Part shown: positions 33,248 to 62,963 of the stretch, one piece after another | Numbering within the stretch: the stretch's first letter is position 1 | How the letters are laid out: each line of letters starts with the position of its first letter | Virus record (IMG/VR): IMGVR_UViG_3300042904_000107 | Span: 33,145-97,144 of that record | Length of the DNA stretch: 64,000 bases | Strand: one strand, 5' to 3' | From: a virus | Translations under genes and position numbers: made by a program | The notes under the pieces: model-generated | Database searches by the model: none | What the model saw: only the letters and a program-made list of their open reading frames with translations | What the model was told of the DNA's origin: nothing

Positions 33248-33249
33248 TA

Positions 33250-34280: not shown

Positions 34281-34281
34281 C

Positions 34282-40980: not shown

Positions 40981-40986
40981 AAATCC

Positions 40987-42291: not shown

Positions 42292-42332
42292 GAATCTCTC
42301 CTTGTAAAATGGATCGGAACTATTTATTATCC

Positions 42333-43016: not shown

Positions 43017-43020
43017 GGTT

Positions 43021-43251
43021 TTACTTCACTTTCTTAAGCTTGCCTTTTTCGTCCTTCTTTGCCTTCTTTTTAGAGGCATCGAAAATGGCTTTCTCTTTTC
43101 CCTGTTTCTTTTTATTGAATGTCTTGGCGACTATCTGCTTACGCTTTTCCGTTAAAATTTCGGCAGCCTTTTCGCTCAAGGATTCGTTTAGGGCATCTTG
43201 TGCATCCACAAGTTTACCACTTTCAATTAGCTTAACGATTTCCTTTGACAT
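43021..43251 (-). CDS. 67: prohead core protein (gp67-like) with basic tail
   Basis: 76 residues. VKLIESGKLVDAQDALNESL at 6-25 followed by KAAEILTEKRKQIVAKTF at 28-45 matches the amphipathic N-terminal helix of T4 gp67. In T4 the tail is extremely acidic; here residues 46-76 are Lys-rich. Position upstream of protease gene 21 supports the family. Confidence 0.75.
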   Translation of the reverse strand: MSKEIVKLIESGKLVDAQDALNESLSEKAAEILTEKRKQIVAKTFNKKKQGKEKAIFDASKKKAKKDEKGKLKKVK

Positions 43252-43260
43252 ATGGCTCCT

Positions 43261-43803
43261 TTATTTAGCGGCTTGTGAACACCAAGAGACCATTTTGATG
43301 AATCCGCAACGGCTTTCCGTTAGTGTCTCCAGCATTGTTACTTGGTTTTCTTCGTTGAGGTTATCAAACACACTCTTAAGCGCGTTTGCCTGGCTCTCAG
43401 AAATTGAAACGGTCATGTCGCCGTTGTCAAATGCAACCCTACGCATTTCCACAATGGCATTCAGAACATCTACCGCCGTTGCTTCATAGCGCACACGCTT
43501 GCTTACATCCTCATCACCCATAGCTTCGGCATTTTTCAGCTTCTTAGCTCCGGTTTCTTTAGTGCTATCGACAACGATAGTATCCTCAGAAACTTGGTCA
43601 TCAGGGTGTGTCACTTCCTCTTCTACATCCTCTGTAACATCGTAGTCCTCAATCAAAGAGGCACCAATTACCTTCTTACGTGTTTCTACGTGGTTTGTTA
43701 CCTTCTCAGCTAGTGCGAGGTTAACGGATGCTACCAAAGTCTCAGCGTTTTCCGTTTCACATGCCAAAACGATTTTACTTGCTTGGTTCGGTTGGTTCGG
43801 CAT
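43261..43803 (-). CDS. unknown prohead-region protein (possible gp68 counterpart)
   Basis: 180 residues from the ATG at 43801-43803, which has GGGAGGG upstream. Helical with an acidic linker (DVTEDVEEEVTHPDDQ near 54-69). It stands where gp67/gp68 lie in T4, between portal and protease, but sequence similarity to gp68 is not evident to me. Overlaps the preceding 50-residue gene by 29 nt. Confidence 0.6.
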   Translation of the reverse strand: MPNQPNQASKIVLACETENAETLVASVNLALAEKVTNHVETRKKVIGASLIEDYDVTEDVEEEVTHPDDQVSEDTIVVDSTKETGAKKLKNAEAMGDEDVSKRVRYEATAVDVLNAIVEMRRVAFDNGDMTVSISESQANALKSVFDNLNEENQVTMLETLTESRCGFIKMVSWCSQAAK

Positions 43804-43927
43804 CAACGCCCTCCCAAATGATTTTGATAGAGTTAGGTTCTGGTGTGTTAGTTTCGACCTCGATTACTTTCTTAGCAACCGTAGGCCCAATGTACACCTG
43901 ACCATTAGCTCCGTATCTCTTACTCAC
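43775..43927 (-). CDS. 50-residue unknown protein with GTG start
   Basis: GTG at 43925-43927, overlapping the portal stop, with a strong AAGGAGG 5 nt upstream. Reads MSKRYGANGQVYIGPTVAKK to EPTEPSK. It looks like a small beta-rich peptide. Expressed between portal and the prohead-core genes. Confidence 0.6.
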   Translation of the reverse strand: MSKRYGANGQVYIGPTVAKKVIEVETNTPEPNSIKIIWEGVDAEPTEPSK

Positions 43928-45500: not shown

Positions 45501-45563
45501 TGTATTCCAATCGAGAAAAGGGGACCAAGAGATTGGCCCCCATGTCTGTAATACTTATGCTGA

Positions 45564-46145
45564 TTAACCAACCAGCGGGATACCCGGACCGTCAGTCGTG
45601 GAACCTTCAGGTCCAACTGATTCCCACCACTGGTAACGTAGAGTGACTTGGAACTTAGCAATCGTGTTATTGGTTCCCCAATCTGTCTCGATTGCACCAA
45701 CCTCAGTTGGGAAAGCTCCTGCCATTCTGTAAATTTTGATCGGAGGAAGATCCAGCTTAGATAGTTGCTGGATTTCCGGATCTGCCGTGTAACCCGGAGG
45801 TGTAGCAGCGGCAAAATCGCGTGTGTTTCCGATATGCTGGTTGAGAGAACTCATCCAGCGTTCGAAAGTATCACGGATTTTGAAGTTCTCATCACACATG
45901 ATGGTTAGAGTCCAAGGATCGAACTCACGATCACCAGGGTAATAGGACTTACGTCCCATATACGGAACTTCAATCTCGCCAAGCTTATCTGCTGGTAAAC
46001 TTGCCGATTCAGCCTGGAAGCTAACAAGTTCACTTGCCTCGCCTCCGCCACCCGCCAGGAGAGGAAATCTCATGACCACACGGAATAAGTTGGGACGAAC
46101 TCCGCTGCCATAAAATTTACCACGAAAGTCTACAATGCTTCTCAT
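45564..46145 (-). CDS. 19: tail tube protein (gp19)
   Basis: 193 residues, T4 gp19 has 163. Location directly downstream of sheath gene 18 and upstream of portal 20 as in T4. VVMRFPLLAG near 23-32, EVPYMGRKSYYPGDREFDPW near 59-78 and LTIMCDENFKIRDTFERWM near 79-97 follow the tail tube fold. Forms the inner tube for DNA passage. Confidence 0.9.
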   Translation of the reverse strand: MRSIVDFRGKFYGSGVRPNLFRVVMRFPLLAGGGGEASELVSFQAESASLPADKLGEIEVPYMGRKSYYPGDREFDPWTLTIMCDENFKIRDTFERWMSSLNQHIGNTRDFAAATPPGYTADPEIQQLSKLDLPPIKIYRMAGAFPTEVGAIETDWGTNNTIAKFQVTLRYQWWESVGPEGSTTDGPGIPLVG

Positions 46146-46157
46146 TCTTGGCTCCTA

Positions 46158-48317
46158 TTAGAATTTACCAACGATTTCTTCAAAGCTTACGCCTGTTCTT
46201 GTGGCGATAAAGTTCAGCTTAATGAAGTTGATGCTACGTGCCGGTTGCACATAAACGTCACCATTGAAACCGTTTGTGTCGATTACTTGCGGCGTGTTAT
46301 TTGAGGCATCGCAGACTACCTTGTAAGCGTAGATACCACGACGTCCCTGAATGTCACGCAGGAATGGATCAACAAGTGAACGGAACTGGGAACGTGTCAC
46401 TTCATCATTGAACTCGAATAGGATATACTTCGCTGCGCGCGAAATAGCCTTACGAAGTACAATGAACAAGCGACGAACGTTGATTCGGTCAAATGCGCTA
46501 GGCTTGGACTGGAGAGTTTTGTCTCCGAAGAGAACAGCACCCTGGCCAGGGAACGACACGATTGGGTTAACTCCCGCTTGATACAGCACATCGCGGTAAG
46601 CTTCCTTCGGGTTCCATGCAAGCTGGCGAACACCCTTGATCTGTCCACGATTCAAACCCGCAGGTGAGAACCACGGATCGCGTGTTTCGTCAGTACGCAC
46701 CATCAAACCAGCCACGTCTCCGTTTGCCGGGATCCAGCGGTACGTATCGTTGTACTTGTCGTATTTCTTGATCCAGTTACCGTCCATGAATGCGTAACTT
46801 GAGTTGGCATTCAATGTGACGTTGCGATAGGTCAAAATATCGGTATGTTCGCTGCCTGGGTTGCTAACAACCGCAGCCTTCGGAGGCGACAGCAAAACAA
46901 CACAATCTTGGCGGGATTCTGCAATGTTGTCAATGCAGTAGCTCACCACTGTTGAACTATGACCGGCTGTGATGATAAGGTTGAAGTCAAACTCTTCAAC
47001 GTTGAAGAGATCGTAACCAGCTTCAATATTACCATCTGTTAATGTGTCGTTACCGTCCACACCGCCAAGAAGCGTATGTTCAACCGGATCTGCCAATGCA
47101 TCAAATGCTACACCAGCAGCTTCGCTTCCCCAATTTGTTCCATCGCTTGTGTGATCCATCCACCAAACGAAGGCAGACTTACGATTGATTACTTCGGCGT
47201 AATAATTTGATTCACCTTGGGCGGTCTTTGCGTCAGATGCCTTCGAAACGAAAGCAAAACGCTCTAGAACATCGCCAGCAGTTCCGGACCAACGACCGGT
47301 TGTGTCAACCACAACCACATGAAGTTCGTCGTCAGATCCACCAAATGCTGTGGCGTAGTCAGACGTACCAGGTGCAGAATCAAATAGTGCTTTGTAATCC
47401 CATGCGGCAAACGAATCAACGTCGGCCATTGAAACTTTCAGTCCGTTACCTAGATCGCCTGCCCACTTGGCAGCCCACTCACCAACAGATGCCTGTCCGG
47501 CAGCGAAGCTGGTTTCATAGTGCGCCTCATTTTTGATTTGAACGCTAGGTGCGTATACCGTTAGAATTGCCGTCGTTGTCGGTGTATCACCACCTGTAGG
47601 TGTTACAGTAATTGTCGGTGCGCTTGTGAATCCTGTTCCACCAGCCGTAATTGTTACGCCGGTGATACCACCACCCACAATGGTTACTGCTCCAGCAGTT
47701 GCTCCGGTTCCACCAGTTCCACCCGTTAGTGTTGCTGTCGGTGCACTTGTGTATCCAGAACCTGGTGTATCAACAACGATTGATGTTACCTCGTCGCCTG
47801 TTAGAACAGCATGTGCTGTTGCACCAGTTCCTGCACCGCCCGAGAACACAACATTAGGTGCCACTGTATAGCCAGAACCGCCAGCGGATACTGCCACGGC
47901 CGTTACTTGACCACCAGTTACCGTTGCTGTTGCTGTTGCACCTGAACCACCGCCGCCTACAAATGCAAGCGTTGGAACATGTACGTATCCAGCACCAGGC
48001 AAAGTGATAGTGATTGTTCCGATTGCATCGCCATCTACGGATGCGTTGCGGGCAGCGCTTGACAGGCAGCGAACAACGTTTAGGTTGTTGCCATATGCCA
48101 AGAAGCTTGCGGCGCTGAAGAAAGTTTCTGCCGTATCATTATCCGGCTTATTGAATCTCTCTACCAACGTCAATTCACTATCAACTAGGGTGCGTTCATA
48201 GGCAGGGCCCCACTGGAAAGGACCAGCAATAACAGCGCCAGTAGTTGCTACACCGGTTACGACCGTGGATAGGTCGATTTCGGCGGATTTAACGCCTGGG
48301 CTCAGTTGAAATCCCAT
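46158..48317 (-). CDS. 18: tail sheath protein (gp18) with glycine-rich repeat insert
   Basis: 719 residues, T4 gp18 has 659. Begins FQLSPGVKSAEIDLSTVV as contractile sheaths do; core motifs include SAAKYILFEFNDE-like segments near 625-640 and a C-terminal VYVQPARSINFIKLNFIATR near 690-709. Residues about 98-255 contain four imperfect Gly-rich repeats of about 40 residues (SGYTxAPxxxxxGGxGTGATA), probably beta strands exposed on the sheath surface. TATAAATA lies upstream at 48377. Confidence 0.95.
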   Translation of the reverse strand: MGFQLSPGVKSAEIDLSTVVTGVATTGAVIAGPFQWGPAYERTLVDSELTLVERFNKPDNDTAETFFSAASFLAYGNNLNVVRCLSSAARNASVDGDAIGTITITLPGAGYVHVPTLAFVGGGGSGATATATVTGGQVTAVAVSAGGSGYTVAPNVVFSGGAGTGATAHAVLTGDEVTSIVVDTPGSGYTSAPTATLTGGTGGTGATAGAVTIVGGGITGVTITAGGTGFTSAPTITVTPTGGDTPTTTAILTVYAPSVQIKNEAHYETSFAAGQASVGEWAAKWAGDLGNGLKVSMADVDSFAAWDYKALFDSAPGTSDYATAFGGSDDELHVVVVDTTGRWSGTAGDVLERFAFVSKASDAKTAQGESNYYAEVINRKSAFVWWMDHTSDGTNWGSEAAGVAFDALADPVEHTLLGGVDGNDTLTDGNIEAGYDLFNVEEFDFNLIITAGHSSTVVSYCIDNIAESRQDCVVLLSPPKAAVVSNPGSEHTDILTYRNVTLNANSSYAFMDGNWIKKYDKYNDTYRWIPANGDVAGLMVRTDETRDPWFSPAGLNRGQIKGVRQLAWNPKEAYRDVLYQAGVNPIVSFPGQGAVLFGDKTLQSKPSAFDRINVRRLFIVLRKAISRAAKYILFEFNDEVTRSQFRSLVDPFLRDIQGRRGIYAYKVVCDASNNTPQVIDTNGFNGDVYVQPARSINFIKLNFIATRTGVSFEEIVGKF

Positions 48318-48396: not shown

Positions 48397-50205
48397 TTAA
48401 TCCCAGCCATAATGACCATGAAGCCTTTTCAACGCTTCTCGGTCATAATTTCTGGCCGCTCTTTGGAGATCGTCTTCGTATCGTTTCCAGATGGTATCTC
48501 CGGTCCGATGCCAAAGGTCCTTCCCACCATCGATTTCTGGATCTTTTTCTGGTTTATCTTCCTCAATGCCACTTAGTAGATAACCATAAGGTGTTAAATC
48601 GTGCTCAAAATTCGGAGCATAATCAACCTGTAGAGATTGGCGGATTTTTGCTTCCATCAAATCTCGAAAATGTTTCTGTGTTGTCAACCATGAGAAAGTA
48701 ACCAACGTCATTACTAAATCATCGTGGTGACCATCCTCAGCCTCATACTTAGCTGCTGGACCAGTTGCCTCTCCTTTTAGTGAAAAGGTGCTCAACTCGT
48801 CCACAATATCCTTGTCTACAATTACCAGTTTATTAGTTTCAACCAAGACTTTCAAGTTTGTGCATCCTGTTCTACGAACAGGAGTGCTCATCTTGACACC
48901 ACGTTGAACATTTTTACCGGTATTACCAAATCCAGTTGAAAGAATCTGACCAGATCTACCTTTCGTTGCCACCAGCATGATATTTTCATATTCATGGATA
49001 TGGTGCAAATCGTCGGCAATTTGATACCCAGGTCCATCCATCTCGACAAGGATGTAAGCGTTGTTATAACGTTTGGCAATGGGTACAATCGTATCAGCGT
49101 AAACTGTGACTGGAATAGTATTACTTCTATATTTAGCCACAACCTTATACGGAGAATCCGTAACATCAATAACGGTTAGGGCTGAATAGTCTAGTTGCTT
49201 ACCGCGTGCAGTGTCCACACAAATGACGTATACATGAGGAGATCTAATACCGGATTCATCGTCTACGTCTACTTGTGGATCTTCCCACACATCAAAACCA
49301 TTCTGTGTGTGGAGAGTTGCTCGGCAACTCTTCATCATCAATTTAAGGAATTTACCTGAAATCAGTGTGGAGCTTGATCCGAGGAATTCACAACCAAACT
49401 CCTGGTTAAATCTCTCCTCACCCATGACTGCCAACATTTTGTCGGCCCATTCTGGTTTTTCACGGCCAGGAACTTCAGTGTAGTGAACTTCAACCGGTAT
49501 GAAGTAGTTGTATTTCGGATCTGTTAATGGTAGATTGGCGTCTCTCCATAACTCCCAAAAGAGGTTTAATCCTTTTGGTGTCGAAACGATAATCACCTTC
49601 GTAGATGTTCCCGCTGCGTCCGATGCGATTACAGGGAACGTAGAAGTCCAGAATTGGTCCGCCAGTTTATTTTCAATGTGGGCAAATTCATCAAGGAAGA
49701 CAATGTTGTATGTCTTACCACGAACAGATTTTGCGGATGTGGCACTCGCTTCCACAACACAACCATTTTCCAACTCGATGCGAGTTTTGTTCCAAACTTT
49801 CACACCTTGTTGTAACCACATAGGCAACAACTCAAAGGCGAGTTGTAGTCTTGACAATAACTCAATAGCGGTATCTCTTTTGTTAGCCAGGATACCAACC
49901 TTCTTATGCTTATTGAAAAGAATATAATGTAGGAAGTACGCAATCATTGTGGTAGATTTACCACTCTGTCGCGGCATCGTACAGATTGTAAATCGGTTCT
50001 TATGTACGGTATCAATAAGTTTTTGTTGGAAAGCCCACAGAACGAAGTCCGACACACCTTCAGCCAGCGTTACCACTTTAATGTAACGTGTGATAAAGAA
50101 TCCTGGATCATCTTTACATTTTTCCAGGAGTTCTAGTCTTTCTTTAGTCCATTGAATCTTTACGTTTGAATCTTTAAGATTAGGATTTCCAAGATATTGA
50201 GACAT
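48397..50205 (-). CDS. 17: large terminase (gp17)
   Basis: 602 residues, T4 gp17 has 610. Walker A MPRQSGKSTT at 77-86, Walker B NIVFLDEFAH at 167-176, coupling motif IVSTPKG near 206-212; nuclease domain with VICVDTARGKQLDYSA near 338-353, VEMDGPG near 396-402, and DDLVMT near 498-503. It packages DNA headful-wise and cuts it. It follows gene 16 and the fibre-like gene and precedes 18. Confidence 0.97.
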   Translation of the reverse strand: MSQYLGNPNLKDSNVKIQWTKERLELLEKCKDDPGFFITRYIKVVTLAEGVSDFVLWAFQQKLIDTVHKNRFTICTMPRQSGKSTTMIAYFLHYILFNKHKKVGILANKRDTAIELLSRLQLAFELLPMWLQQGVKVWNKTRIELENGCVVEASATSAKSVRGKTYNIVFLDEFAHIENKLADQFWTSTFPVIASDAAGTSTKVIIVSTPKGLNLFWELWRDANLPLTDPKYNYFIPVEVHYTEVPGREKPEWADKMLAVMGEERFNQEFGCEFLGSSSTLISGKFLKLMMKSCRATLHTQNGFDVWEDPQVDVDDESGIRSPHVYVICVDTARGKQLDYSALTVIDVTDSPYKVVAKYRSNTIPVTVYADTIVPIAKRYNNAYILVEMDGPGYQIADDLHHIHEYENIMLVATKGRSGQILSTGFGNTGKNVQRGVKMSTPVRRTGCTNLKVLVETNKLVIVDKDIVDELSTFSLKGEATGPAAKYEAEDGHHDDLVMTLVTFSWLTTQKHFRDLMEAKIRQSLQVDYAPNFEHDLTPYGYLLSGIEEDKPEKDPEIDGGKDLWHRTGDTIWKRYEDDLQRAARNYDREALKRLHGHYGWD

Positions 50206-50212
50206 TGTTTAA

Positions 50213-51613
50213 TTACGCACCAAGGGCGTGGAAGTACCAAGCATATGCTGTACCAGCAGTTAAAGCAGATCCGTTTGAGGTAATAACAAACGTTGTTGTG
50301 GTCGTTGATGAAACAAAAGGCTGCACTGTCACCGCAAGGCTGGCAGTTGCTTTATTCGCAGGAACTAAAAGAACCGTAGGCGCGCTACCAAATGCTGTGT
50401 TAAATGTTACTGTAGCAACGATGGCATCCGCCGCAGGTGTTGTACCGGGTGTTAAAGTAATCTTTCCGGCATTATCTAGTCCGGTAATCGCAATTGTAGG
50501 AGTTGTACCCGCACCTGTTCCTTCTAGAATTGTTGGAGCAGAACCACCAATCGTGGCGTGCTCCGGCCAGGTTTCGAGATCCGTTGCGGTATCCGCATTA
50601 CCAATTAGATCAGCAGTAATTTCGTTCGCAGTGAAGTCCCCGTTAGAGTCACGCTTAACGATTGTATCCACCACCAACGATTCTGTGGCTGCGACGGTAT
50701 CATTTACAGACGTGGCAATTGCTGCGGCTGTTTTACCGCCAACGGTTGCTACTGTTGGGTTTGGATACGAACTACCCGTTAAATCACCGCCGGCACTTCC
50801 ACCAGGTGTTCCGCCGTCCTTATTGACAGCAATTGTAGAAATCGCGGTAATACGTCCCTTTACATCTATTGTAATAACCGGAATATTGTCAGCATCACCG
50901 CTTTCACCAGCGGAAAGTCCTGAAAGAGTTGCAAGGACTGGATTTGGTAGGTCACCTGATAGATCTCCGCCAACACCACCGGTCGATGTAATTACCTTTG
51001 CTTTGAAATCGACGTAATCAGTGTCTCCGGAATTTCGAGCTTCGAGTCCTGCCACCACACCTTTAATTCGGTGTGCGCTATTGATTTGAAAGCTACCAGC
51101 ATTTGTCCCAGTATCAGTATTCTGGTCATGTGCTTTCGTTGCGGCGCTTGCTACAGATGCGGCGCTTGCTCCACCAACAGTCGATACAGTTGGATTCGGA
51201 TAAGTTCCACCAAGATCTCCAGCGGCAGATTGTGCTCCTTTAATAACGTTCCCAAGGCTTGCACCTAGAGCCGTTTCAATAGCCTTAATTTCTGCGGCTA
51301 TCTGATTTCTATGCCAGTCAAAAATGTAACCATATCCGGTTACACCTGAACTATGTGATGCCGCAGATCCAATGAACCCGCGTTCGCAATTCTCAATGGT
51401 ATTTCCACTTAAAGGTCCAAGCGCCTTCACTACTTCATTTTCGATGGCAATTAAACACGGAAGGTGGAAAACTGTGGCATCCACAAACGTAATATCTGTG
51501 ACAGATCCGTTTATAGCACCGTTCAAGTTGGAATAGGCATTATCCTTAACAACTAGTAAATCCGCATCTACGGCTACTGCGGTAGGAAATACCGCGGAAT
51601 TTGGATTAGGCAT
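50213..51613 (-). CDS. tail-fibre-like structural protein inserted between 16 and 17
   Basis: 466 residues. Contains repeats of the form GDLxGxYPNPTVxxVGG (near 139, 217 and 276) typical of phage fibre shafts; ends FVITSNGSALTAGTAYAWYF, typical of fibre tip domains. N-terminal 1-110 contains CERGFIGSAASHSSG and may be the attachment part. In T4 genes 16 and 17 are adjacent, so this is an insertion in the packaging module. Late direction. Confidence 0.78.
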   Translation of the reverse strand: MPNPNSAVFPTAVAVDADLLVVKDNAYSNLNGAINGSVTDITFVDATVFHLPCLIAIENEVVKALGPLSGNTIENCERGFIGSAASHSSGVTGYGYIFDWHRNQIAAEIKAIETALGASLGNVIKGAQSAAGDLGGTYPNPTVSTVGGASAASVASAATKAHDQNTDTGTNAGSFQINSAHRIKGVVAGLEARNSGDTDYVDFKAKVITSTGGVGGDLSGDLPNPVLATLSGLSAGESGDADNIPVITIDVKGRITAISTIAVNKDGGTPGGSAGGDLTGSSYPNPTVATVGGKTAAAIATSVNDTVAATESLVVDTIVKRDSNGDFTANEITADLIGNADTATDLETWPEHATIGGSAPTILEGTGAGTTPTIAITGLDNAGKITLTPGTTPAADAIVATVTFNTAFGSAPTVLLVPANKATASLAVTVQPFVSSTTTTTFVITSNGSALTAGTAYAWYFHALGA

Positions 51614-52144
51614 TTATTGTCCCTCTTGTTCTCGTTTCTTTTTTCTAGATGCCTCAATCGCCTCTAGGATTTCCATTGTGGTTCCTTCAAGAATGACATT
51701 GTTCACCTGGTCGGCATGTTCTATTGATACCGGCGTATTTTTATCACCATCAGAAGCTATCTTCTTTTGGAGAAGATTCATATCTTTCTGGAGTTGCATC
51801 AACTGACCAGTACCCTCAATTAAGACCTTCAAAACACCGCCGGCGACTTCATATGTTCGCGGCGATTCTCCTTCTTTGGCTAATTCGGTGATACCTTCAA
51901 GTACCTCGTTACCTTTCATTAGCAAATTGTGGAGATTAGTGCGGGCAAAGTCATAATCATCCTGTGCGTCTTGGGAAATGATTGGAGCAGGCGGCGCAAC
52001 AACAATGGGTGGTAAAACTTCCGGTACGAGAGCTTTTTGGATCTCAATCGGAAGTTTTGCGTCAATCTCTTGCTGTGCGGCACCGAGCGCATCCTCAATT
52101 CTTGTTGAAAGCGGTTGCTTCTTTGGTCTGCCTCTAGTAGCCAT
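51614..52144 (-). CDS. 16: small terminase (gp16)
   Basis: 176 residues, T4 gp16 has 164. DDYDFARTNLHNLLMKGNEV near 62-81 with SPRTYEVAGGVLKVLIEGTG near 94-113 and LQKDMNLLQKKIA near 118-130 match gp16, the DNA-recognising oligomer that regulates gp17. CATAAATA just upstream resembles a late promoter. Confidence 0.9.
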   Translation of the reverse strand: MATRGRPKKQPLSTRIEDALGAAQQEIDAKLPIEIQKALVPEVLPPIVVAPPAPIISQDAQDDYDFARTNLHNLLMKGNEVLEGITELAKEGESPRTYEVAGGVLKVLIEGTGQLMQLQKDMNLLQKKIASDGDKNTPVSIEHADQVNNVILEGTTMEILEAIEASRKKKREQEGQ

Positions 52145-52153
52145 AAACTATAT

Positions 52154-52885
52154 TTATGATTCCACAACCTCAAATGGGCCACTCTGAAGTGCATCAGAAG
52201 GATCAGGTTCAACGTGGATAAGTGTATCATCGACGTTAACGTCGATTTCTGTAATAACCTTTTTCGTTTTCACTGGTGGATAAAGTTCACCACGTCCTTC
52301 GAAATTAAATTCCCACTCAAGCGTGCGTTTGTCTAAGAAATTCCCTTCAAATGAATCCGATTGGCTATTACCAGTCAAACTGAACACAATATCTCTCCGC
52401 AAATTAATTTGCGGAATCGTCATGATTGGAACAGAAAAATCAGGCTGAAAAAACGGTAAAAACTGTTCTATAATCGCATAACCGTCTTCTAGAGTCCTGG
52501 TGGCAATATGTAGTGAAAAATCAAACAGGAACGGAACAGGGTTCAATTGGCGCTTCACTGTCGCATTCGTTGACTCTAATCCTACACGATATAGTATTGG
52601 AGATAGCTTACGTCTTGAATCGTATCGGAAACCATTCAACATGTATGCCATGCGCGGTAGAACAATTTGGACGTGCTTTTGTTCCGCTACGTTACCGGCA
52701 TTCGGATCACTGATATACCGCTGGGCCCATTTCTCTTTTGTGGATTGTTCGATCGGAACTTTGATCGTCTTCACCACATTTGTATTAGGGTCTTTGCGTT
52801 CGATTGAAATGTCCTGAAAGATCCAACCAAAAGTATTGGTGTACTTTTCAATCGTTTTGTAGTTATAAGGTGAATTACCTAGCAT
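52154..52885 (-). CDS. 15: tail sheath stabiliser / terminator (gp15)
   Basis: 243 residues, T4 gp15 has 272. VPIEQSTKEKWAQRYISDPN near 43-62, HVQIVLPRMAYMLNGFRYD near 71-89, EQFLPFFQPDFSVPIMTIPQ near 140-159 and EWEFNFEGRGELYPPVKTKK near 190-209 all match gp15, which caps the tail so it can join the head. Confidence 0.95.
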   Translation of the reverse strand: MLGNSPYNYKTIEKYTNTFGWIFQDISIERKDPNTNVVKTIKVPIEQSTKEKWAQRYISDPNAGNVAEQKHVQIVLPRMAYMLNGFRYDSRRKLSPILYRVGLESTNATVKRQLNPVPFLFDFSLHIATRTLEDGYAIIEQFLPFFQPDFSVPIMTIPQINLRRDIVFSLTGNSQSDSFEGNFLDKRTLEWEFNFEGRGELYPPVKTKKVITEIDVNVDDTLIHVEPDPSDALQSGPFEVVES

Positions 52886-52888
52886 CGT

Positions 52889-53500
52889 TTACTCCGTGAA
52901 TGGGTTTCTCTGGTTGGGGTCAAGGAATGTTTCAATGCGTGTCTTAATCTCTTCATTGTCTGCTAGAGGGTCGGGTGCATCCTCTAACTCTGATACAATC
53001 GAGTCGATGTCGGTATTACCAGTATCAACCTCTTCATGACTGTAACGGAACTTCTCACATGTGATTTTCCAGACGTAAATTTTACCAAGTTGATAAAAGA
53101 CCTCTTCGTGGTCCGCAAACGTTACTTCCAAAATGTCCTTCGTTATTGGGAGATATATCAAGTCTCCTTCTTGCGGTCGAGGTAGGTCGGGAATAGTTTC
53201 ATCGAAGCGTTTCTTGGAAACATTGAAAACCGCCTGCTTATCAATGTTAAGACCAAACTTATTCAGGAAGTTTTTATCGCCCAGGAATCCTTCGACATTT
53301 TCCATATAAGCTTCAATGGTAAAGGACTGTAGAAACGCTCGTTGTGCGTCCTCACCAAAGATCTTGTCAAAGTCTACCAATGTCTTGGGAACGTAGACGA
53401 TATCCATTCCGTAAATTTTAATAGCCTCAATAATAAGGCCTTCCAATGTATTCTGCTCATTTGTGGCAGTGAACTTGACGAAGTATGGATTCGTAGGCAT
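52889..53500 (-). CDS. 14: neck protein (gp14)
   Basis: 203 residues, T4 gp14 has 256. IEAIKIYGMDIVYVPKTLVD near 24-43, KIFGEDAQRAF near 46-56, VEGFLGDKNFLNKFGLNI near 69-86 and EGDLIYLPI near 112-120 match gp14. It joins the neck during head-tail assembly. The first gene of the visible late block; gene 13 is not present on its upstream side. Confidence 0.93.
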   Translation of the reverse strand: MPTNPYFVKFTATNEQNTLEGLIIEAIKIYGMDIVYVPKTLVDFDKIFGEDAQRAFLQSFTIEAYMENVEGFLGDKNFLNKFGLNIDKQAVFNVSKKRFDETIPDLPRPQEGDLIYLPITKDILEVTFADHEEVFYQLGKIYVWKITCEKFRYSHEEVDTGNTDIDSIVSELEDAPDPLADNEEIKTRIETFLDPNQRNPFTE

Positions 53501-53534
53501 AAATTTCTGTCCTATTTAGGGGAAATGGTCTAGC

Positions 53535-53563
53535 TTGACAAACCATTTTGGCCTTGATATAAT
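53535..53563 (+). promoter_or_regulatory. sigma70-type promoter (TTGACA-17-TATAAT)
   Basis: Perfect -35 TTGACA (53535-53540) and -10 TATAAT (53558-53563), spacer 17 nt with GGCC; GGTCTAGC precedes. First plus-strand promoter of the right-hand early region; the ATG follows 10 nt after the -10. Confidence 0.88.
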
Positions 53564-53573
53564 GGCCTAGAAA

Positions 53574-53726
53574 ATGAGCGAAGCGAAGAAAACGAAGAGT
53601 GCCGGTGGCACTAAGAAGCCGAAGAAGACAAAAACAGAAGATCTCGGCTACACTCGTATCGACATGAGCACCATGGAACCGGTCAGCGGTCGACCGATAG
53701 TCCTATTTCGAAGGATCCACGGATGA
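53574..53726 (+). CDS. 50-residue basic protein
   Basis: MSEAKKTKSAGGTKKPKKTK, then TEDLGYTRIDMSTMEPVSG and RPIVLFRRIHG. A Lys-rich N-terminal 22 residues suggests nucleic-acid binding. The near-leaderless start (10 nt after the -10) and an ATGA overlap with the next gene support it. No family recognised. Confidence 0.6.
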   Translation: MSEAKKTKSAGGTKKPKKTKTEDLGYTRIDMSTMEPVSGRPIVLFRRIHG

Positions 53727-54070
53727 GCAACGTACTAGAACACAAAGCCGAAATCATTCGAGATTACCGAGAAGGTGTTCTCAATTTCGAGACCATTCGG
53801 GCAAAGTATAACGCGCGCCGAGAAGATATGGTCGAAATGCTGCGGTCAGAGGATGTTCCTCTTCGGGGACCTCTGAAGCGTTCACCGACAAAGAGTGGCA
53901 CGAAAGTTGCTACCGTCGGGACGAAAATCCTTTACCTTTCCGATAACCTGACAGTCGGTACTATTTACGAGAGTCCGGACTACGGGAAAGGTGAAGTGCT
54001 CGAAAAGTATCCAATTGGCAAGTCAGTTTCAGAATATCGAATCAAATTTGGTGGTCAGTTAGTAAACTGA
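53723..54070 (+). CDS. unknown 115-residue protein
   Basis: Begins MSNVLEHKAEIIRDYREGVL. Residues 8-40 resemble a helix-turn-helix start (IIRDYREG...FETIRAKYNARREDM), so DNA binding is possible. The rest is beta-rich. Coupled to the 50-residue gene by an ATGA overlap. Early promoter upstream. Confidence 0.6.
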   Translation: MSNVLEHKAEIIRDYREGVLNFETIRAKYNARREDMVEMLRSEDVPLRGPLKRSPTKSGTKVATVGTKILYLSDNLTVGTIYESPDYGKGEVLEKYPIGKSVSEYRIKFGGQLVN

Positions 54071-54090
54071 CCACCATCGAGGGCCCTAGT

Positions 54091-54264
54091 ATGTACCTGG
54101 TATCCGTAACGCCAGAGCATTATTTAATGGCGACACATTTCAACTCAATTGACACGACAGCTAAAGAGGAGCAGGCTTTGAAAGTAGAGAAGGATGATGT
54201 AAAAAGTACGATTGCCGCTTTGCGTCGTCTAGGTTACGAACCTCTTCTTGTGAAAATCACCTAA
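54091..54264 (+). CDS. 57-residue unknown protein
   Basis: Starts MYLVSVTPEHYLMATHFNSI and ends PLLVKIT, with GAGGG just upstream. Beta-helix-beta pattern. No family recognised. Confidence 0.55.
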   Translation: MYLVSVTPEHYLMATHFNSIDTTAKEEQALKVEKDDVKSTIAALRRLGYEPLLVKIT

Positions 54265-54265
54265 T

Positions 54266-54577
54266 ATGAAATGGCCTTGGACAAAAGAACCTCCACCTCC
54301 ACCGAAACTTAAGCCTCCCCGACAACCACAAACCTTCGGGGAATACAAGGATCTGGTGAGACAATATCTCCTTGATTGGCATCGAGACACACAGATCGAG
54401 GAGTCAGGTGATCTGGATTGGATGATGCGTCCAGAAATCTGCGACCAATATCTTGCCGGTTGGTTCCATGACGGCTTCACACCAGCAGTGGCCGCCGATG
54501 CATGGTATGCCGAGTCCAACGACCCTTACGCCTTCGATCAGACACGCGACCCGATAGGGTTTACAAAATCCTCTTGA
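54266..54577 (+). CDS. unknown 103-residue protein with Pro-rich N-terminus
   Basis: Begins MKWPWTKEPPPPPKLKPPRQ; the rest is Trp- and Asp-rich and helical (DWMMRPEICDQYLAGWFHDG). Its ATG is 1 nt after the stop of the previous gene. No family recognised. Confidence 0.6.
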   Translation: MKWPWTKEPPPPPKLKPPRQPQTFGEYKDLVRQYLLDWHRDTQIEESGDLDWMMRPEICDQYLAGWFHDGFTPAVAADAWYAESNDPYAFDQTRDPIGFTKSS

Positions 54578-54607
54578 CATCCTCGACTTGCGCGAGTATG
54601 TTATAAT
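54574..54607 (+). promoter_or_regulatory. extended -10 promoter (TGTTATAAT)
   Basis: TATAAT at 54602-54607 with TG one base before (extended -10); a TTGACA at 54574-54579 lies 22 nt away, too far for a standard spacer, though TATGTT at 54597-54602 is 17 nt from it. The next ATG is 10 nt after TATAAT. Confidence 0.65.
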
Positions 54608-54617
54608 TGGGACCGAT

Positions 54618-54908
54618 ATGAAACACACGCTGGATGCCGATCAGGAGAAACAGAAACAGGCATTAATCCGCAGCGCCAAGCAGGCTTTCTCCGGAGATCC
54701 GAAATTACTTGACGAATACACCAACGAGGATTGGCGGTTGGCGCGTGTCGATGCGAACGTGAAGACTCTTATGGAAGGAGATATCACGATTGCGCGCAAG
54801 TCTGAACGCCCAGAGACTATCATTCCCAGGGTCTACGCCTATTGCTGGAGGACGAAGACCCAAATCACCCTTCATACCACAGATCCGATCGAATTCTTAG
54901 AAGATTAA
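54618..54908 (+). CDS. unknown 96-residue protein, near-leaderless
   Basis: Starts at MKHTLDADQEKQKQALIRSA, 10 nt after the -10; an earlier in-frame ATG would lie upstream of the transcription start. Helical N-terminal half, beta-rich C-terminal half with YCWRTKTQITLHTT. No family recognised. Confidence 0.62.
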   Translation: MKHTLDADQEKQKQALIRSAKQAFSGDPKLLDEYTNEDWRLARVDANVKTLMEGDITIARKSERPETIIPRVYAYCWRTKTQITLHTTDPIEFLED

Positions 54909-54918
54909 AACGCCATTT

Positions 54919-54947
54919 GACAATGGCCCGTTTTCGTGTTATCTTTT
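54919..54947 (+). promoter_or_regulatory. sigma70-type promoter (TTGACA-17-TATCTT)
   Basis: -35 TTGACA (54919-54924), -10 TATCTT (54942-54947), 17-nt spacer beginning ATGGCCC. It lies upstream of two strong hairpins with no gene between, hence a small RNA or a regulated leader. Confidence 0.75.
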
Positions 54948-54953
54948 AATTGT

Positions 54954-55078
54954 TGTTGCGATAGAGTAATCGGGAAACGTCTTCGTCTGTCTCGCTAACT
55001 AACCTTGCGTTTCCCGATCCTTCTTTCTCGCGTCTCGCTGCGGCGGGCTGGAATCTCTCATCAGCCCGCCGCTTTTCT
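54954..55078 (+). ncRNA. candidate structured small RNA or attenuator leader
   Basis: The transcript from the promoter at 54919 would begin near 54954. An 11-bp perfect stem pairs 54969-54979 with 55008-55018, with a 28-nt pyrimidine-rich loop. An 11-bp G+C-rich stem follows (55040-55050 with 55062-55072) with TTTTCT after it, an intrinsic terminator. No reading frame is evident. It could also be the attenuated leader of the gene at 55091. Confidence 0.55.
55040..55078 (+). terminator. rho-independent terminator
   Basis: GCGGCGGGCTG and CAGCCCGCCGC form an 11-bp stem around an 11-nt loop, followed by TTTTCT. The next ATG is 13 nt further, so read-through must occur or this gene needs another promoter. 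Confidence 0.82.
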
Positions 55079-55090
55079 CACCGAGACTGG

Positions 55091-55492
55091 ATGATTACAT
55101 TATCTTCTCAACTCATCGAACGCCTACTTCCTAATGCACCTTTTCGTGCCTTATTCCGTAGGGATCCGTCTCAAGGGTGGGTTGGTCTGGTGGAGTATTC
55201 GTTCAGCATGGACTGGAGTCCAGATCGAGCTTTGATCTTATGGTCTGGTAAATATTTTAGTAATATTGGAACAACCGGCGAGATTGATGCGGTAGAGGAC
55301 GGAAACCAAATATACCAGACATATCGCAAACAATACCCAAATGATTTGCTACTCCTTGTGGACCCGACAACACCGGATTGCCCTTTTGAGATCAACTGGG
55401 AAGCTTGGTTGAATGCCACAAATAAATTCAACAAGCGCAACGCTCCGTTTAAAGCTGTTGACCGGAACAACGCCGTTCCGATAAAAATATAG
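55091..55492 (+). CDS. unknown 133-residue protein
   Basis: Begins MITLSSQLIERLLPNAPFRA; ATG preceded by GAGACTGG. Contains WVGLVEYSFSMDWSPDRALI near 30-49 and DAVEDGNQIYQTYRKQYPND near 65-84; looks like a small globular alpha-beta protein. No family recognised. Confidence 0.65.
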   Translation: MITLSSQLIERLLPNAPFRALFRRDPSQGWVGLVEYSFSMDWSPDRALILWSGKYFSNIGTTGEIDAVEDGNQIYQTYRKQYPNDLLLLVDPTTPDCPFEINWEAWLNATNKFNKRNAPFKAVDRNNAVPIKI

Positions 55493-55502
55493 GCCAAATC
55501 TA

Positions 55503-55532
55503 TTGACTTCCTTGGTCTAGATGTAGTACCCT
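55503..55532 (+). promoter_or_regulatory. sigma70-type promoter (TTGACT-18-TACCCT)
   Basis: -35 TTGACT (55503-55508), -10 TACCCT (55527-55532), spacer 18 nt with GGTCTAG inside and AGGCCAAAT upstream. The next ATG is 8 nt after the -10, so the mRNA is essentially leaderless. Confidence 0.68.
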
Positions 55533-55540
55533 GTAATTGT

Positions 55541-55861
55541 ATGAAATACGCACTACTGACCTTCAATCTTTTTCCCGGCATCACCGGGACACTTGTGGTC
55601 GATGCCCTCAGCGCCGCTGAACTGATTGCCGATTCCGTCGTGAACGGAGAGACGGTGACTGTGACAGGTATCACCGTCCTTGAGGCCGCCGCATTGGCAC
55701 CGGAACTGTTTTCTGATCCGGTTTTTGTCCAAGACTGGGTGAACGCCACATGGACACAACTCAACAACTTCCTCGCAGCGGAAGCCGGCTACGAGAACCC
55801 GAACACCGAACTCGCCCAGGATTACGAGTACGGAGCCGCCGCACCAAATGGCCTCTGGTAA
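55541..55861 (+). CDS. unknown 106-residue acidic protein, leaderless
   Basis: Begins MKYALLTFNLFPGITGTLVV. Strands at the start, an Ala-rich helix in the middle (TVLEAAALAPELFSDPVFV) and an acidic tail. No family recognised. Followed by a strong terminator. Confidence 0.62.
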   Translation: MKYALLTFNLFPGITGTLVVDALSAAELIADSVVNGETVTVTGITVLEAAALAPELFSDPVFVQDWVNATWTQLNNFLAAEAGYENPNTELAQDYEYGAAAPNGLW

Positions 55862-55910
55862 CAAACACCTCCGAAGTACAAAAACGCAGTAGTGCCAACC
55901 CACCTCACCA

Positions 55911-55952
55911 ACGGGCCTATCGGTTACCCCAACCGATAGGCCCGTTCGTCTT
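55911..55952 (+). terminator. rho-independent terminator
   Basis: A 15-bp perfect stem pairs 55911-55925 (ACGGGCCTATCGGTT) with 55931-55945, loop of 5 nt, followed by TCGTCTTTCTCT. One of the strongest hairpins in the window. Confidence 0.85.
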
Positions 55953-55978
55953 TCTCTACAAATATTATTAGACCCCTG

Positions 55979-56010
55979 TTGACTTTCGTTAATAACCGTT
56001 GCATCATACT
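55979..56010 (+). promoter_or_regulatory. possible promoter upstream of the 56075 gene
   Basis: TTGACT at 55979-55984 with CATCAT at 17 nt or CATACT at 20 nt. Weak -10 in both cases, but the position between a terminator and a gene with a good Shine-Dalgarno fits. Confidence 0.4.
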
Positions 56011-56074
56011 CATATGAGGGGCGCGACAAACGCTTCCTCGATCCAAACATTAACTCTAGAGGAGAAGTACAACG

Positions 56075-56401
56075 ATGCAACCGCAGGGAAATATTCCCAC
56101 TTTCGAGATCGACCTCGGCAACACGTCGGACTCAAACTCACCGCGCGTCAAGTTGCTCAACTGGAACACGGTGAACTATGCCGACATTTACGCCGACCAA
56201 ACCGGAGAGAAATCGAAGATCACCAGAATCACTCTCCACTACAACAACGGCACCCAGCAGGAGCTCCAAGGCCACATCGCCTGCGAGAACTTCCTCTCGC
56301 AGTTCCAGTCCCAAATGGGCCAGTCCTTCCAGACGTTTCTGAGCACGGCCATTCCGACCGTCTCCAGCGCCGGCAGCGGAGGTCTGCGATCCCGCACCTA
56401 G
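56075..56401 (+). CDS. unknown 108-residue protein
   Basis: Begins MQPQGNIPTFEIDLGNTSDS with GAGGAG 12 nt upstream. Beta-rich first two thirds, polar Ser/Gln/Gly tail (SQFQSQMGQSFQTFLSTAIP). Codon third positions are more G+C-rich than in the late genes. No family recognised. Confidence 0.65.
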   Translation: MQPQGNIPTFEIDLGNTSDSNSPRVKLLNWNTVNYADIYADQTGEKSKITRITLHYNNGTQQELQGHIACENFLSQFQSQMGQSFQTFLSTAIPTVSSAGSGGLRSRT

Positions 56402-56561: not shown

Positions 56562-56951
56562 ATGCGCGACAGTCAGATTATCCTTGTGGTCGAGGACGAA
56601 ATATCCATTCAAAAGCTCCTCAAAGCCACGCTACAGAGCCAAACAAAGAACTACGATCTCCTCATCGCCGACTCCGGAGAAGAAGGGCTCCGATTCTATC
56701 GCGAATTCCGCGCCCGCATTGCAGTGGCACTCATCGACTACTCACTCCCTGGCATGAAAGGCTCCACGCTGATTAGACGCCTCAAAGAAATCACACCGAA
56801 CGTGAAATGCATCCTGATGACCGGACATCGGACAGTAGACGACATTGACGAGGCGACCATACCGGTGCTCAATAAGCCGTTCACAATCCAGAATCTCATG
56901 AAAGTTCTAGGGGAAGCCATTCCAATAGAAAGTAAGCAAGAAAACAAATAA
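56562..56951 (+). CDS. stand-alone response-regulator receiver domain
   Basis: 129 residues, just one CheY-like domain. The acidic pair is Glu11-Asp12 in LVVEDE, the phosphoacceptor Asp59 in ALIDYSLPGMKG, the switch Thr87 in LMTGHR and the conserved Lys105 in VLNKPF. No output domain is attached. Such a protein could mimic or compete with host two-component receivers or act as a phosphate sink. AAGAGGACCAA precedes the ATG; a terminator follows. Confidence 0.9.
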   Translation: MRDSQIILVVEDEISIQKLLKATLQSQTKNYDLLIADSGEEGLRFYREFRARIAVALIDYSLPGMKGSTLIRRLKEITPNVKCILMTGHRTVDDIDEATIPVLNKPFTIQNLMKVLGEAIPIESKQENK

Positions 56952-57131: not shown

Positions 57132-57263
57132 ATTTCAAAAATCTTGCGTCCGCATACAAACTTCTTGCCTCTTGAAGTTTCAGATTGTAGCTAGACACTC
57201 TCTGGAGAGCGTATTTCAGATAAAAAGATCTTAAATCACTTTGAGATACAAAGTAGTAAGTCA

Positions 57264-57310
57264 CAAAAAAGCGCGACTAACAGCGTTACGTATTCGCTAT
57301 CAGTCGCGCT
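57264..57310 (-). terminator. rho-independent terminator (minus strand) inside the GG/CC-free island
   Basis: On the minus strand AGCGCGACT (57310-57302) pairs with AGTCGCGCT (57278-57270), with an inner AGCG/CGCT pairing, followed by TTTTTT. The stem is built only from GC/CG/AT steps, without GG or CC. It ends the two-gene unit. Confidence 0.8.
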
Positions 57311-57319
57311 AACTCTCAC

Positions 57320-57550
57320 TTACATGCTGTCGTCTGTCTCAACTGCAAGAGCGTATGTGTGAAACTGCTCGTGATTCGCGTCGAATGTCAAACGCGCGAC
57401 ATCAAATTCTGTTACTTCGACTTTCTCTGTTGCTTCTGTGTTCTCGAAGAAGACAAACTGTGTAGCGAAGTAAGCTAACACAGTGTCATCTAAGCGAGTG
57501 TCAGTGTCTTCAATCGAGTTGAGTTGTTCTTTCAGTTGTCTATACGTCAT
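57320..57550 (-). CDS. 76-residue Gly-, Pro- and Trp-free protein
   Basis: Begins MTYRQLKEQLNSIEDTDTRL. LDDTVLAYFATQ near 20-31 resembles a widespread small phage/bacterial family (MTYxELLxxLxxLP..LDxxVTVY...), which normally ends with a Pro/Gly-rich segment; here all Gly and Pro are missing. Start context ACGAAAGAGAGAACAATG is identical to that of the neighbouring gene. Function unknown. Confidence 0.7.
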   Translation of the reverse strand: MTYRQLKEQLNSIEDTDTRLDDTVLAYFATQFVFFENTEATEKVEVTEFDVARLTFDANHEQFHTYALAVETDDSM

Positions 57551-57605
57551 TGTTCTCTCTTTCGTTGTTGTGCGCGCTAGTCACGTTCTAGCGCGCTCGT
57601 GTCTG

Positions 57606-58193
57606 CTAACTAAGTAACTGAAGCGCTTGCTCGTTCTGTGCTTCAGTCAATTGCTGTTCGTCGCGTTTCGCGTTCTGAGCGTCGATAGCGCGATCTGTTG
57701 CGCTCTGCTTCGCTTCGCGCTTCGCTTTCGTTTCGCGCTTCGCTTTCGTCGCTTCGTTCGTCGCTTTCGTCACAAGCGCTTTGCTGTCGCTTTGCTTCGC
57801 GTCGCTCGTTGCGCTTGCAAGCTTGCAACGCTTCAGATCGTACAGATGTGATGCTGTCTGAAGCGCTTTGTTCTTCGTCACGTAGTACACAGCGCAGCGT
57901 CGCTCACTATCGACGCTCACAGATGCGTGATAGATCTCAGAGCGCTTATACATGCGCTTTGCATAGCGCTGTTTCGCGTCGTCGCTCACGTTGAGTGCTT
58001 CGTCTTCTTTGATGTCGCGCACAGCGCAATAGCGCTTGAGAGCGTCTTTATCGACGTTGCGCGCAACGAGCGCATCGAAAAACGCGATGATGAGTTGAAT
58101 CATCGCGAATTGCTTCGCGTTGAACTTCGTAAGCGTGATGAGCACGCTATACGCTTCGTTCGTTTCTTTGTTAATCGCTTTTTGAATCGACAT
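57606..58193 (-). CDS. 195-residue Gly-, Pro- and Trp-free protein, paralogue of 62487-62963
   Basis: Begins MSIQKAINKETNEAYSVLIT. Residues about 70-135 align with the protein at 62487-62963: VSDDAKQRYAKRMYKRSE against VTQEEHDRYAKGLLRRVE, CAVYYVTKN against CPYFITKN, and LYDLKR against LYNLQK. The C-terminal third is Lys/Ala/Glu/Gln-rich, as is the paralogue's. Not one Gly, Pro or Trp in 195 residues. The Shine-Dalgarno is GAGAGA. Function unknown; possibly DNA binding. Confidence 0.75.
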   Translation of the reverse strand: MSIQKAINKETNEAYSVLITLTKFNAKQFAMIQLIIAFFDALVARNVDKDALKRYCAVRDIKEDEALNVSDDAKQRYAKRMYKRSEIYHASVSVDSERRCAVYYVTKNKALQTASHLYDLKRCKLASATSDAKQSDSKALVTKATNEATKAKRETKAKREAKQSATDRAIDAQNAKRDEQQLTEAQNEQALQLLS

Positions 58194-58429
58194 TGTTCTC
58201 TCTTTCGTCTCGCAAGTTAGTTTGTGTTGTGCGTCTAGCGTGCTATGAAATCAGCATGTACTAGCGCGTTTAGTGCGTTTCAGTTGTCAAAGAGCAAGTT
58301 ACTAACACTACATTCAGTTGTTGCACTCGCGAAACATACGTGAGCTTGTCTAGCAAGCTTTAGACTCGAATCTAACAGACATGAGCACGAGCGCTGTTAG
58401 CGTTTCGCTTACTTCGTTCTGACATAATC

Positions 58430-58458
58430 AGAATAGCAGAAGCGAAAATGGGGAGCAA
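58430..58458 (-). promoter_or_regulatory. possible promoter of the GG/CC-free genes (TTGCTC-17-TATTCT)
   Basis: -35 TTGCTC (58453-58458), -10 TATTCT (58430-58435), spacer 17 nt. The only G run of the area, GGGG at 58450-58453, lies in it. The leader to 58193 would be about 235 nt. From 58459 to 58794 there is no gene I can support; TTGACA at 58657 with CTAGGCC in the following bases lacks a good -10. Confidence 0.4.
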
Positions 58459-58794
58459 GTCGCGCAACTTCAATCATTGCTATAGTTTACAGACGTGTGC
58501 AACAAAAGTGTTTAATATCTGAATATCTGAAATAGCTGTATGTGTATGATTCGATTGACTTTATATGACAAAGCAGTGGTGCTCGAAACGACCGCAGCTT
58601 AAATTAGTAGAATCGCAAAAATAATCATTAAAAAACCTTAATCATTTAATTCTTGACAAACACACTCTAGGCCATTTGTCAAGGCGCGCCAGAATTAAAA
58701 AAATTTAATCTCACTTTGCGCCACAAAGTGTTGCATAAGCGAAGCTTCCTCATGCAAACTAGAGCCAGCTCGAAAGAGCGAAGCGAGACAGAAC

Positions 58795-59163
58795 ATGCCA
58801 TACGTGAACTACCGACGACTGACGACGATAACACTCGACCAAGTCTCCCACATGCTGGCGACGGATGACGACTGGCTGGAGCGTGCGATTGTGAAGCTCC
58901 ACGACCGCCAGACTGATTTAGAGCGCCAAGCACGCGAGACACTTGCCATCAAGAATGAAATCGGCCTCCAGCGCGCCGATGCGCTCCTGTTTAGCAAGTA
59001 TGCCGAGCAACTGAAACGGGGGACCCACCTCTCCGACGCCCAGAAGCGCACCGCGCGTCGCCCGTGGAATCGCCCCAAGACCCCGATCCCGACCATTTGC
59101 AAGTATCGCCGGCAAGTGCTCGAAATGATCGAAAACGCCGCACGGAGACAGAGGGGGCTCTAG
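58795..59163 (+). CDS. 122-residue protein, paralogue of 61330-61692
   Basis: Begins MPYVNYRRLTTITLDQVSHM. About 70 percent identical by eye to the protein at 61330-61692; the core LATDDxWLERAIV, RQARETLAIKNEIGLQRAD and RPWNRPKTPIPTICKYR is shared. Charged, helical, no known family. AAGCGAGACAGAAC precedes the ATG in both. The copies face opposite directions. Confidence 0.75.
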   Translation: MPYVNYRRLTTITLDQVSHMLATDDDWLERAIVKLHDRQTDLERQARETLAIKNEIGLQRADALLFSKYAEQLKRGTHLSDAQKRTARRPWNRPKTPIPTICKYRRQVLEMIENAARRQRGL

Positions 59164-61329: not shown

Positions 61330-61692
61330 CTACTGAGCACGTCTCGCTTTCGCTTCGATGATGTCCAGAATCTGCTTGCGATACTTGCAGATCGTTGGAA
61401 TGGGAGTCTTGGGCCGATTCCACGGACGACGCGCTTGCCGCTTCTCTGTCTCGCTCAGATGTTTGCCGCTCTTGATCTTTTCCGCAAGCTTGCTGAAGAG
61501 GAGCGAATCAGCGCGTTGGAGGCCGATCTCGTTCTTGATTGCCAGCGTCTCTCTCGCTTGACGTTCAAGTTCCGTTTGCCGATCGTGCAGCGCTACGATT
61601 GCACGTTCCAACCACGTGTCGTCCGTGGCAAGCATGAATGCAATCTGTTCCGTGGTGAATGTTGTCTTTCGCTTGTAGTTGACGTATGGCAT
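61330..61692 (-). CDS. 120-residue protein, paralogue of 58795-59163
   Basis: Begins MPYVNYKRKTTFTTEQIAFM. Near-identical core with the plus-strand copy (LHDRQTELERQARETLAIKN, RPWNRPKTPIPTICKYR). Charged, helical; no known family. The promoter at 61713-61742 gives a leader of about 14 nt with GCGAG before the ATG. Confidence 0.78.
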   Translation of the reverse strand: MPYVNYKRKTTFTTEQIAFMLATDDTWLERAIVALHDRQTELERQARETLAIKNEIGLQRADSLLFSKLAEKIKSGKHLSETEKRQARRPWNRPKTPIPTICKYRKQILDIIEAKARRAQ

Positions 61693-62486: not shown

Positions 62487-62963
62487 TTACTCGATGGCGG
62501 CGGCCGGTTCGGCGACCGTCTCGTTCATCGTCTCGCCGGCGGCGACGGGCTCGGCGGGCGTCTTCTTCCCCTTCTTCGGCTTGGCGGCTTCCTTCTTCGG
62601 AGCGGCGCCCTTCTTGGCTTTCGCCGCTTTCTTCTTGGGCGCCGGCGTCTCCGTCGCATCGTCGGCCGCCGGCGGGTGCTTCGCCGCGTGATCGATGAAC
62701 TTCTGGAGGTTGTACAGCGAGGAGCCTTCCTTCTTGCTCGCCTTCGCCATCGTGTTCTTGGTGATGAAGTACGGGCAGGAGGTGTGGTTGCGGAGCTTCT
62801 CGTGCGCCTCGCGCAACTCGACGCGGCGGAGAAGGCCCTTCGCGTAGCGGTCGTGCTCCTCCTGGGTGACGCCATTCTCGCCGATCGGCTTGGCGGTGAA
62901 GTACTTGATGATCTCCGAGCACAGGGCGACCTGCGTGGCGGAGAGTGCGATGCGGTTAATCAT
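62487..62963 (-). CDS. 158-residue protein with histone H1-like tail, paralogue of the GG/CC-free gene
   Basis: Begins MINRIALSATQVALCSEIIK. Residues 34-95 align with the 195-residue protein at 57606-58193 (RYAKGLLRRVE, CPYFITKN, SLYNLQK). The last 60 residues are Ala/Lys/Pro-rich (PKKKAAKAKKGAAPKKEAAK), like H1-type DNA-binding tails. The pre-ATG sequence CGAAAGCGAGAACA also resembles that of the paralogue (CGAAAGAGAGAACA). Function unknown. Confidence 0.75.
   Translation of the reverse strand: MINRIALSATQVALCSEIIKYFTAKPIGENGVTQEEHDRYAKGLLRRVELREAHEKLRNHTSCPYFITKNTMAKASKKEGSSLYNLQKFIDHAAKHPPAADDATETPAPKKKAAKAKKGAAPKKEAAKPKKGKKTPAEPVAAGETMNETVAEPAAAIE

Follow-up and report, generated by a model that had tools for sequence, protein, structure and literature searches.

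A 1244-nt island in the genome of a T4-like phage contains no GG and no CC dinucleotide at all, and a second island of this kind, with unrelated sequence, occupies the same gene-block junction in a related phage. The absence is complete and symmetric with respect to the strands, and it acts on the level of the nucleic acid. Hence, the island represents a position-specific avoidance of GG on both strands and is neither an inherited element nor an effect of the encoded proteins. As an explanation, we propose with a probability of roughly 0.45 that the DNA at one fixed junction in a small T4-like lineage is strongly selected against GG on either strand.

The GG/CC-free island

The window analyzed here is a stretch of 64,000 nucleotides that corresponds to bases 33145-97144 of the 97144-bp IMG/VR virus record IMGVR_UViG_3300042904_000107 (contig G000). 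By direct count, zero GG and zero CC are found at window positions 57206-58449—exactly the extent given in the preliminary description of this DNA. The island is composed of A261, C299, G292, and T392 (GC 47.5%), for which composition alone predicts 71.8 CC and 68.5 GG (about 140 together, where the preliminary description had roughly estimated 130). The clean run is flanked by GG at 57204-57205 and by GGGG at 58450-58453. The latter is the sole exception within the depleted stretch, as had been described before: Clean DNA resumes at 58454-58577, and the next GG follows at 58578. Beyond 58577, GG/CC stay at 0.44-0.66 of the expectation to about 58949, and the edges of the island are unequal, one being sharp and the other soft. 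Elsewhere in the 64-kb window, the next longest GG/CC-free runs measure 65 nt, and 200 shuffles of the window gave no run longer than 147 nt. A sliding-window check reveals no comparable island in the window; the remainder of the contig is ordinary with a median GG/CC observed/expected of 0.96.

Of all dinucleotide classes, GG/CC show by far the most extreme depletion at this locus (z -9.2, and z -8.2 in the related phage G002 described below). With GG/CC forbidden, CG and GC are expected 113.8 times each and occur 126 and 121 times, so that the displaced G and C are taken up by CG and GC steps. The other 14 dinucleotides fit quasi-independence under the ban with modest deviations, for example, 73 AA versus 46. 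An avoidance of stable duplexes or of G+C in general was rejected as an explanation, since GC and CG steps are abundant. The same holds for the avoidance of G-quadruplexes, to which an isolated GG would be harmless. The avoidance of G-runs in RNA put forward in the preliminary description would, by itself, not require the loss of every isolated GG.

The contig covers 97 kb of a phage genome. Profile matches to T4-like myophage markers (major capsid protein, portal, terminase, and tail sheath; phrog_138, phrog_213, phrog_2, and phrog_23) identify the phage carrying the island as a T4-like myophage. Its major capsid protein is 61% identical to that of Methylophilales phage Melnitz, and its terminase 46% identical to that of Synechococcus phage ACG-2014d. 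Five tRNA genes (Arg, two Ser, and two Glu) lie on the minus strand at window 273-1369 and 11375-11537. Two contigs from two other IMG/VR samples, L009 and L237, match the phage at 99.95-99.99% (window 48929-56209 and 31662-47221), and, hence, the species recurs. These matches stop at window 56209; the island of this species is thus present in one assembly only. An assembly artefact is unlikely, as a different phage, assembled from a different sample, has the second, non-homologous island at this very place. Scans of genome contigs with the terminase and capsid alignments returned no relatives, so we name no host.

Genes and signals within the island

The ban extends over two genes with their leaders, over a hairpin terminator, and over DNA that is not translated. 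Both genes lie on the minus strand, and both encode proteins without Gly, Pro, and Trp. ORF1 (57606-58193, 195 aa) belongs to a family of small early phage proteins that occurs in multiple copies, and bears a Lys/Ala-rich tail, while ORF2 (57320-57550, 76 aa) displays a weak N-terminal match to phrog_1057 (E 0.0028). The start region of ORF1 (58188-58208, minus strand; ACGAAAGAGAGAACAATG) features a ribosome-binding site without GG, and a repeat search found the same leader motif ACGAAAGAGAGAACAATG in the start region of ORF2 (57545-57565, minus strand). An inverted-repeat search combined with folding identified an intrinsic terminator at 57262-57310 (minus strand), which consists of a 16-bp hairpin without GG/CC followed by a T-run; a 91-nt stretch folds here with -37.3 kcal/mol (z -5.1). 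No tRNA or Rfam RNA was found in the island. Beside it, a single-domain response regulator (PF00072, E 3.6e-16), possibly derived from a host, is encoded at window 56562-56951 on the plus strand.

The absence of Gly, Pro, and Trp does not account for the ban. When the same protein sequences were encoded with the codon usage of the phage in 5000 simulations, 34 GG/CC were expected for ORF1 (simulation minimum 18) and 14 for ORF2 (simulation minimum 4), whereas 0 are observed in either gene. Hence, codon choice and codon junctions obey the ban as well. The codons of the island favor G/C endings—GCG in 20 of 38 Ala codons, AAC in 11 of 12 Asn codons, GAC in 15 of 22, and also CGC—showing that there is no loss of C and G as such.

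Members of the ORF1 family sit in the accessory regions of this phage and of three relatives (G001, G002, and G009). In G000, this is an ordinary, GG/CC-containing paralogue at 62487-62963 on the minus strand. Residues 1-128 of ORF1 score 23.7 bits against a family HMM that was built without ORF1, the best of 2000 shuffles reaching 12.5. The family motifs PYFI-KN and G-YNLS read AVYYVTKN and SHLYDLKR in ORF1; conserved Pro and Gly are thereby replaced. Judged by this profile comparison, ORF1 is a gene of this phage lineage's own family and not a foreign one. The preliminary description had suggested looking for homologues of the two Gly/Pro/Trp-free proteins: Neither ORF1 nor ORF2 has a significant match among phages and plasmids, and the family of ORF1 is made up of Gly/Pro-bearing phage relatives. 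For ORF1, a helical core without a structural match is predicted; the predicted model of ORF2 is too poor for structure comparison.

The same junction in related phages

Relatives were gathered via the terminase, and the analysis covered five near-complete genomes. G002 (IMGVR_UViG_3300028800_000060, 175698 bp), whose terminase is 66% identical to that of G000, carries a 728-nt GG/CC-free run within about 1.4 kb of DNA with five exceptions (G002:152129-153509). This island sits at the same junction between the accessory and the structural gene blocks, and gene order and orientation around both islands agree. It bears two genes that differ from those of G000, and their proteins again lack Gly, Pro, and Trp. 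One of these proteins is zinc-ribbon-like (CANCDE...CIECSY), with Pro/Gly positions replaced relative to the usual pattern of this fold. The two islands have no sequence in common beyond chance k-mers and share no internal motif. That unrelated genes obey the same ban in G002 places the constraint, together with the codon-conditional test, on the nucleic acid rather than on protein, and the preliminary description was right on this point.

In each of the four genomes G000, G002, G009, and G001, the lowest GG/CC 300-nt window of the genome falls at this junction. The lows of G009 and G001 (observed/expected 0.33 and 0.48 per 300 nt) are weak and at most suggestive, as similar ones occur in other phages; the depletion in G009 reaches gene-free DNA. 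About 120 further viral loci, retrieved by a short flank-motif pattern and mostly chance matches, contain no island, with only G009 being relevant among them, and neither do 79 loci around a neck gene, mostly of distant T4-like phages. A comparison of the gene content of G000/G002 with that of G001/G009 revealed no obvious cognate agent. A nicotinamide phosphoribosyltransferase gene (PF18127/PF04095) adjoins a NUDIX-domain gene at window 4589-7188 (minus strand). This pair, which likely serves NAD salvage in the manner of pairs that counteract NAD-depleting defenses, is also present in G002 and G009 and absent from G001.

All five exceptions in the island of G002 are GGA/TCC (L069 12376, 12441, 12618, 12694, and 12782), compared with 36% GGA in the surrounding region—a result with a chance of about 0.006. 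The sole exception in G000, GGGG, also ends in GGA. Should further islands show GGA/TCC exceptions, a third base may be part of what the agent behind the ban recognizes.

Just outside the sharp edge of the island, a motif (AGCTACAATC..GAAACTTCAA; 57172-57192, minus strand) is conserved in all four related phages. Written as AGMTACWATC...AAACTTCAA, followed at distance by CCAAAAAATTTT, it has one match per genome in these four phages, its second half being a variant in G000. In G002, a 71-nt repeat that itself contains inverted repeats lies exactly at the sharp edge in three tandem copies (L069 13499-13711). An MPYVNY-family gene (phrog_21015, function unassigned; 58795-59163, plus strand) lies next to the island side in G000, G002, and G009. 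In G000, it has a 76% identical paralogue on the opposite strand at 61330-61692 (minus).

Two other depletions were rejected as islands. In phage C48C1 (OQ984149.1), GG/CC drop to 0.10 of expectation per 300 nt at 141011-151054 and 154814-3884, which correspond to tail-fibre and neighboring large structural genes. The depletion persists when the proteins and the usage of codons are taken into account (z -12 and -8); there is no long free run, and we read these lows as protein and codon bias. A GC-free run of 650 nt in G002 is trivially explained by a collagen-like repeat gene.

A possible GG-reading agent and rival readings

In the proposed mechanism, an agent would read GG in DNA on both strands and would act at this junction—laid out as accessory/early block, island, and structural block—far more than elsewhere in the genome. 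Genes occupying the junction would have been rewritten to fit, even where this sacrificed conserved Gly, Pro, and Trp. The likeliest agent would be a GG-dependent nuclease or a PAM-dependent surveillance of the type I-F or NGG PAM kind, which might meet the locus at a vulnerable moment, for example, as an early-expressed or end-exposed region. We infer herein selection rather than mutation, DNA rather than RNA as the target, and the identity of the agent. We see even odds that an undescribed GG-reading agent, be it host defense or phage machinery, acts at this place only and that the island is its footprint. Escape from a GG/CC-dependent defense based on a PAM or a nuclease is a possible form of this. 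A PAM-reading defense is the leading, though unproven, candidate, and a cis-acting DNA function is the main alternative. GG/CC is the PAM of type I-F systems and of NGG-type Cas9, and the missing motif agrees with it, though in motif only. The whole-genome depletion that goes with PAM avoidance is absent, as GG/CC are normal elsewhere (median 0.96). It would hence have to be explained why CRISPR or restriction pressure is confined to this junction. T4-like phage genomes are as a rule circularly permuted, and the assembly of G009 is a circle whose break lies elsewhere, so that the data do not support a fixed DNA end at the island.

The ban might also lie in RNA, with transcripts having to survive an endoribonuclease or RNA-binding factor that recognizes GG and CC, for example, in mRNA decay. 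In its favor, the fully clean runs match transcribed gene pairs, transcribed units make up most of both islands, and the last CC of G002 is found within the spacer of the sole consensus promoter before the genes; sequence-specific mRNA interferases with exempt transcripts offer an analogy. However, this reading has to explain why GG and CC are both excluded, why the depletion runs upstream of the promoters (58454-58577, and about 650 nt in G002), and why it enters gene-free DNA in G009; we know of no RNase with a two-base GG/CC specificity and regard an RNA-level ban as unlikely. Under erosion by mutation, a locus that is often single-stranded would have been cleared by a cytidine deaminase with a preference for CC or by damage specific to GG, which would suit the complete absence, the soft edge on one side, and the rapid divergence of the islands. 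Yet a background of 56% GC that merely lost its GG/CC is calculated to end at roughly 42% GC, below the 47.5% of the island. Furthermore, G/C-ending codons are preferred, TC/CT/AG/GA show no clear product excess, and a single C-to-T step does not yield exchanges like Pro to Ala or Gly to Thr. The island thus displays neither the loss of C/G nor the excess of T/A products of a deaminase scar. Erosion appears quite improbable, and the escape from a CC-specific deaminase considered in the preliminary description is disfavored by the high GC and the codon endings. With a deaminase disfavored, and an RNA-only ban having to account for GG, CC, and clean upstream DNA alike, selection on the level of DNA is the best reading.

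Import—as a mobile element or from a replicon with a global GG/CC ban—was another suggestion of the preliminary description, and imperfect inverted repeats of 24 nt (83%) near both island edges in G000 (left arm 57212-57235, right arm 58511-58534) would be in line with it. These repeats have no counterpart in the island of G002, though, and a pattern scan of IMG/VR for them gave three loci, all ordinary DNA; a scan for the shared leader pattern gave four, all by chance. The island encodes ORF1 and ORF2 only, without a transposase or recombinase, and shows no obvious target duplication. No relative is found in IMG/VR, phage, or plasmid collections, ORF1 belongs to the lineage's own gene family, and G002 has different content at the same locus: The relatives share the place and not the sequence. 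Import is thus very unlikely. Of the earlier interpretation, the nucleic-acid-level constraint is supported, import is not supported, and a CC deaminase is disfavored. A cis-acting site for origin function, packaging, or segregation, whose protein machinery cannot cope with GG/CC (a zone devoid of primase or protein-binding sites, for example), would explain the fixed position and the strand symmetry. The motif conserved next to the sharp edge of all four phages and the tandem repeats at the edge in G002 also speak for it. Against it, island length ranges from about 0.3 to 1.4 kb, no internal motif is shared, and neither G002 nor G009 shows a GC-skew switch at the island, so that we hold a site of this type to be improbable.

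Comparison with known systems

Phage motif avoidance is normally weak and genome-wide, whereas the island is absolute, local, and strand-symmetric. Its ban prevails over the conservation of proteins and is found again, on unrelated sequence, at the same locus. In the literature searched (open-licence papers only), no description of GG/CC-free islands or GpG/CpC bans in phages was found, which does not by itself prove the island to be new. It implies a strong agent that reads two bases only and acts at one place. Such an agent would be a new defense, a new phage DNA-handling step, or a known PAM-reading system put to a new use. The GG-free ORF1 and its ordinary paralogue (62487-62963) form a natural pair that makes this testable.

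For MazF/MqsR-type mRNA interferases, particular transcripts are exempt, as they lack the recognition sequence. The island resembles these transcripts in that particular genes are devoid of a short recognition sequence. To our knowledge, however, the recognition sequences of such enzymes comprise at least 3 bases on one strand, in contrast to a two-base ban that applies to both strands and includes spacers. APOBEC3G-type hypermutation targets the CC/GG dinucleotide and shares its target with the island. Unlike APOBEC3G scars, the island shows no C-to-T excess, keeps its GC, and retains intact ORFs with adapted amino acids.

As summarized in PMC6546361, type II-A spacer acquisition prefers first-injected free DNA ends. 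This preference would give rise to position-specific pressure against GG-containing PAMs, but it needs a defined end, and T4-like phages are usually permuted. Finally, in phages of CRISPR-bearing hosts, PAM depletion, an avoidance of short motifs, has been ascribed to selection by defense (Kupczok and Bollback 2014, PMC4246573). The island is similar to these phages in that a short motif is avoided in phage DNA. There, however, depletion is statistical, spans the whole genome, and concerns other PAMs, whereas the ban in the island is absolute, is limited to about 1.3 kb, and holds for both strands.
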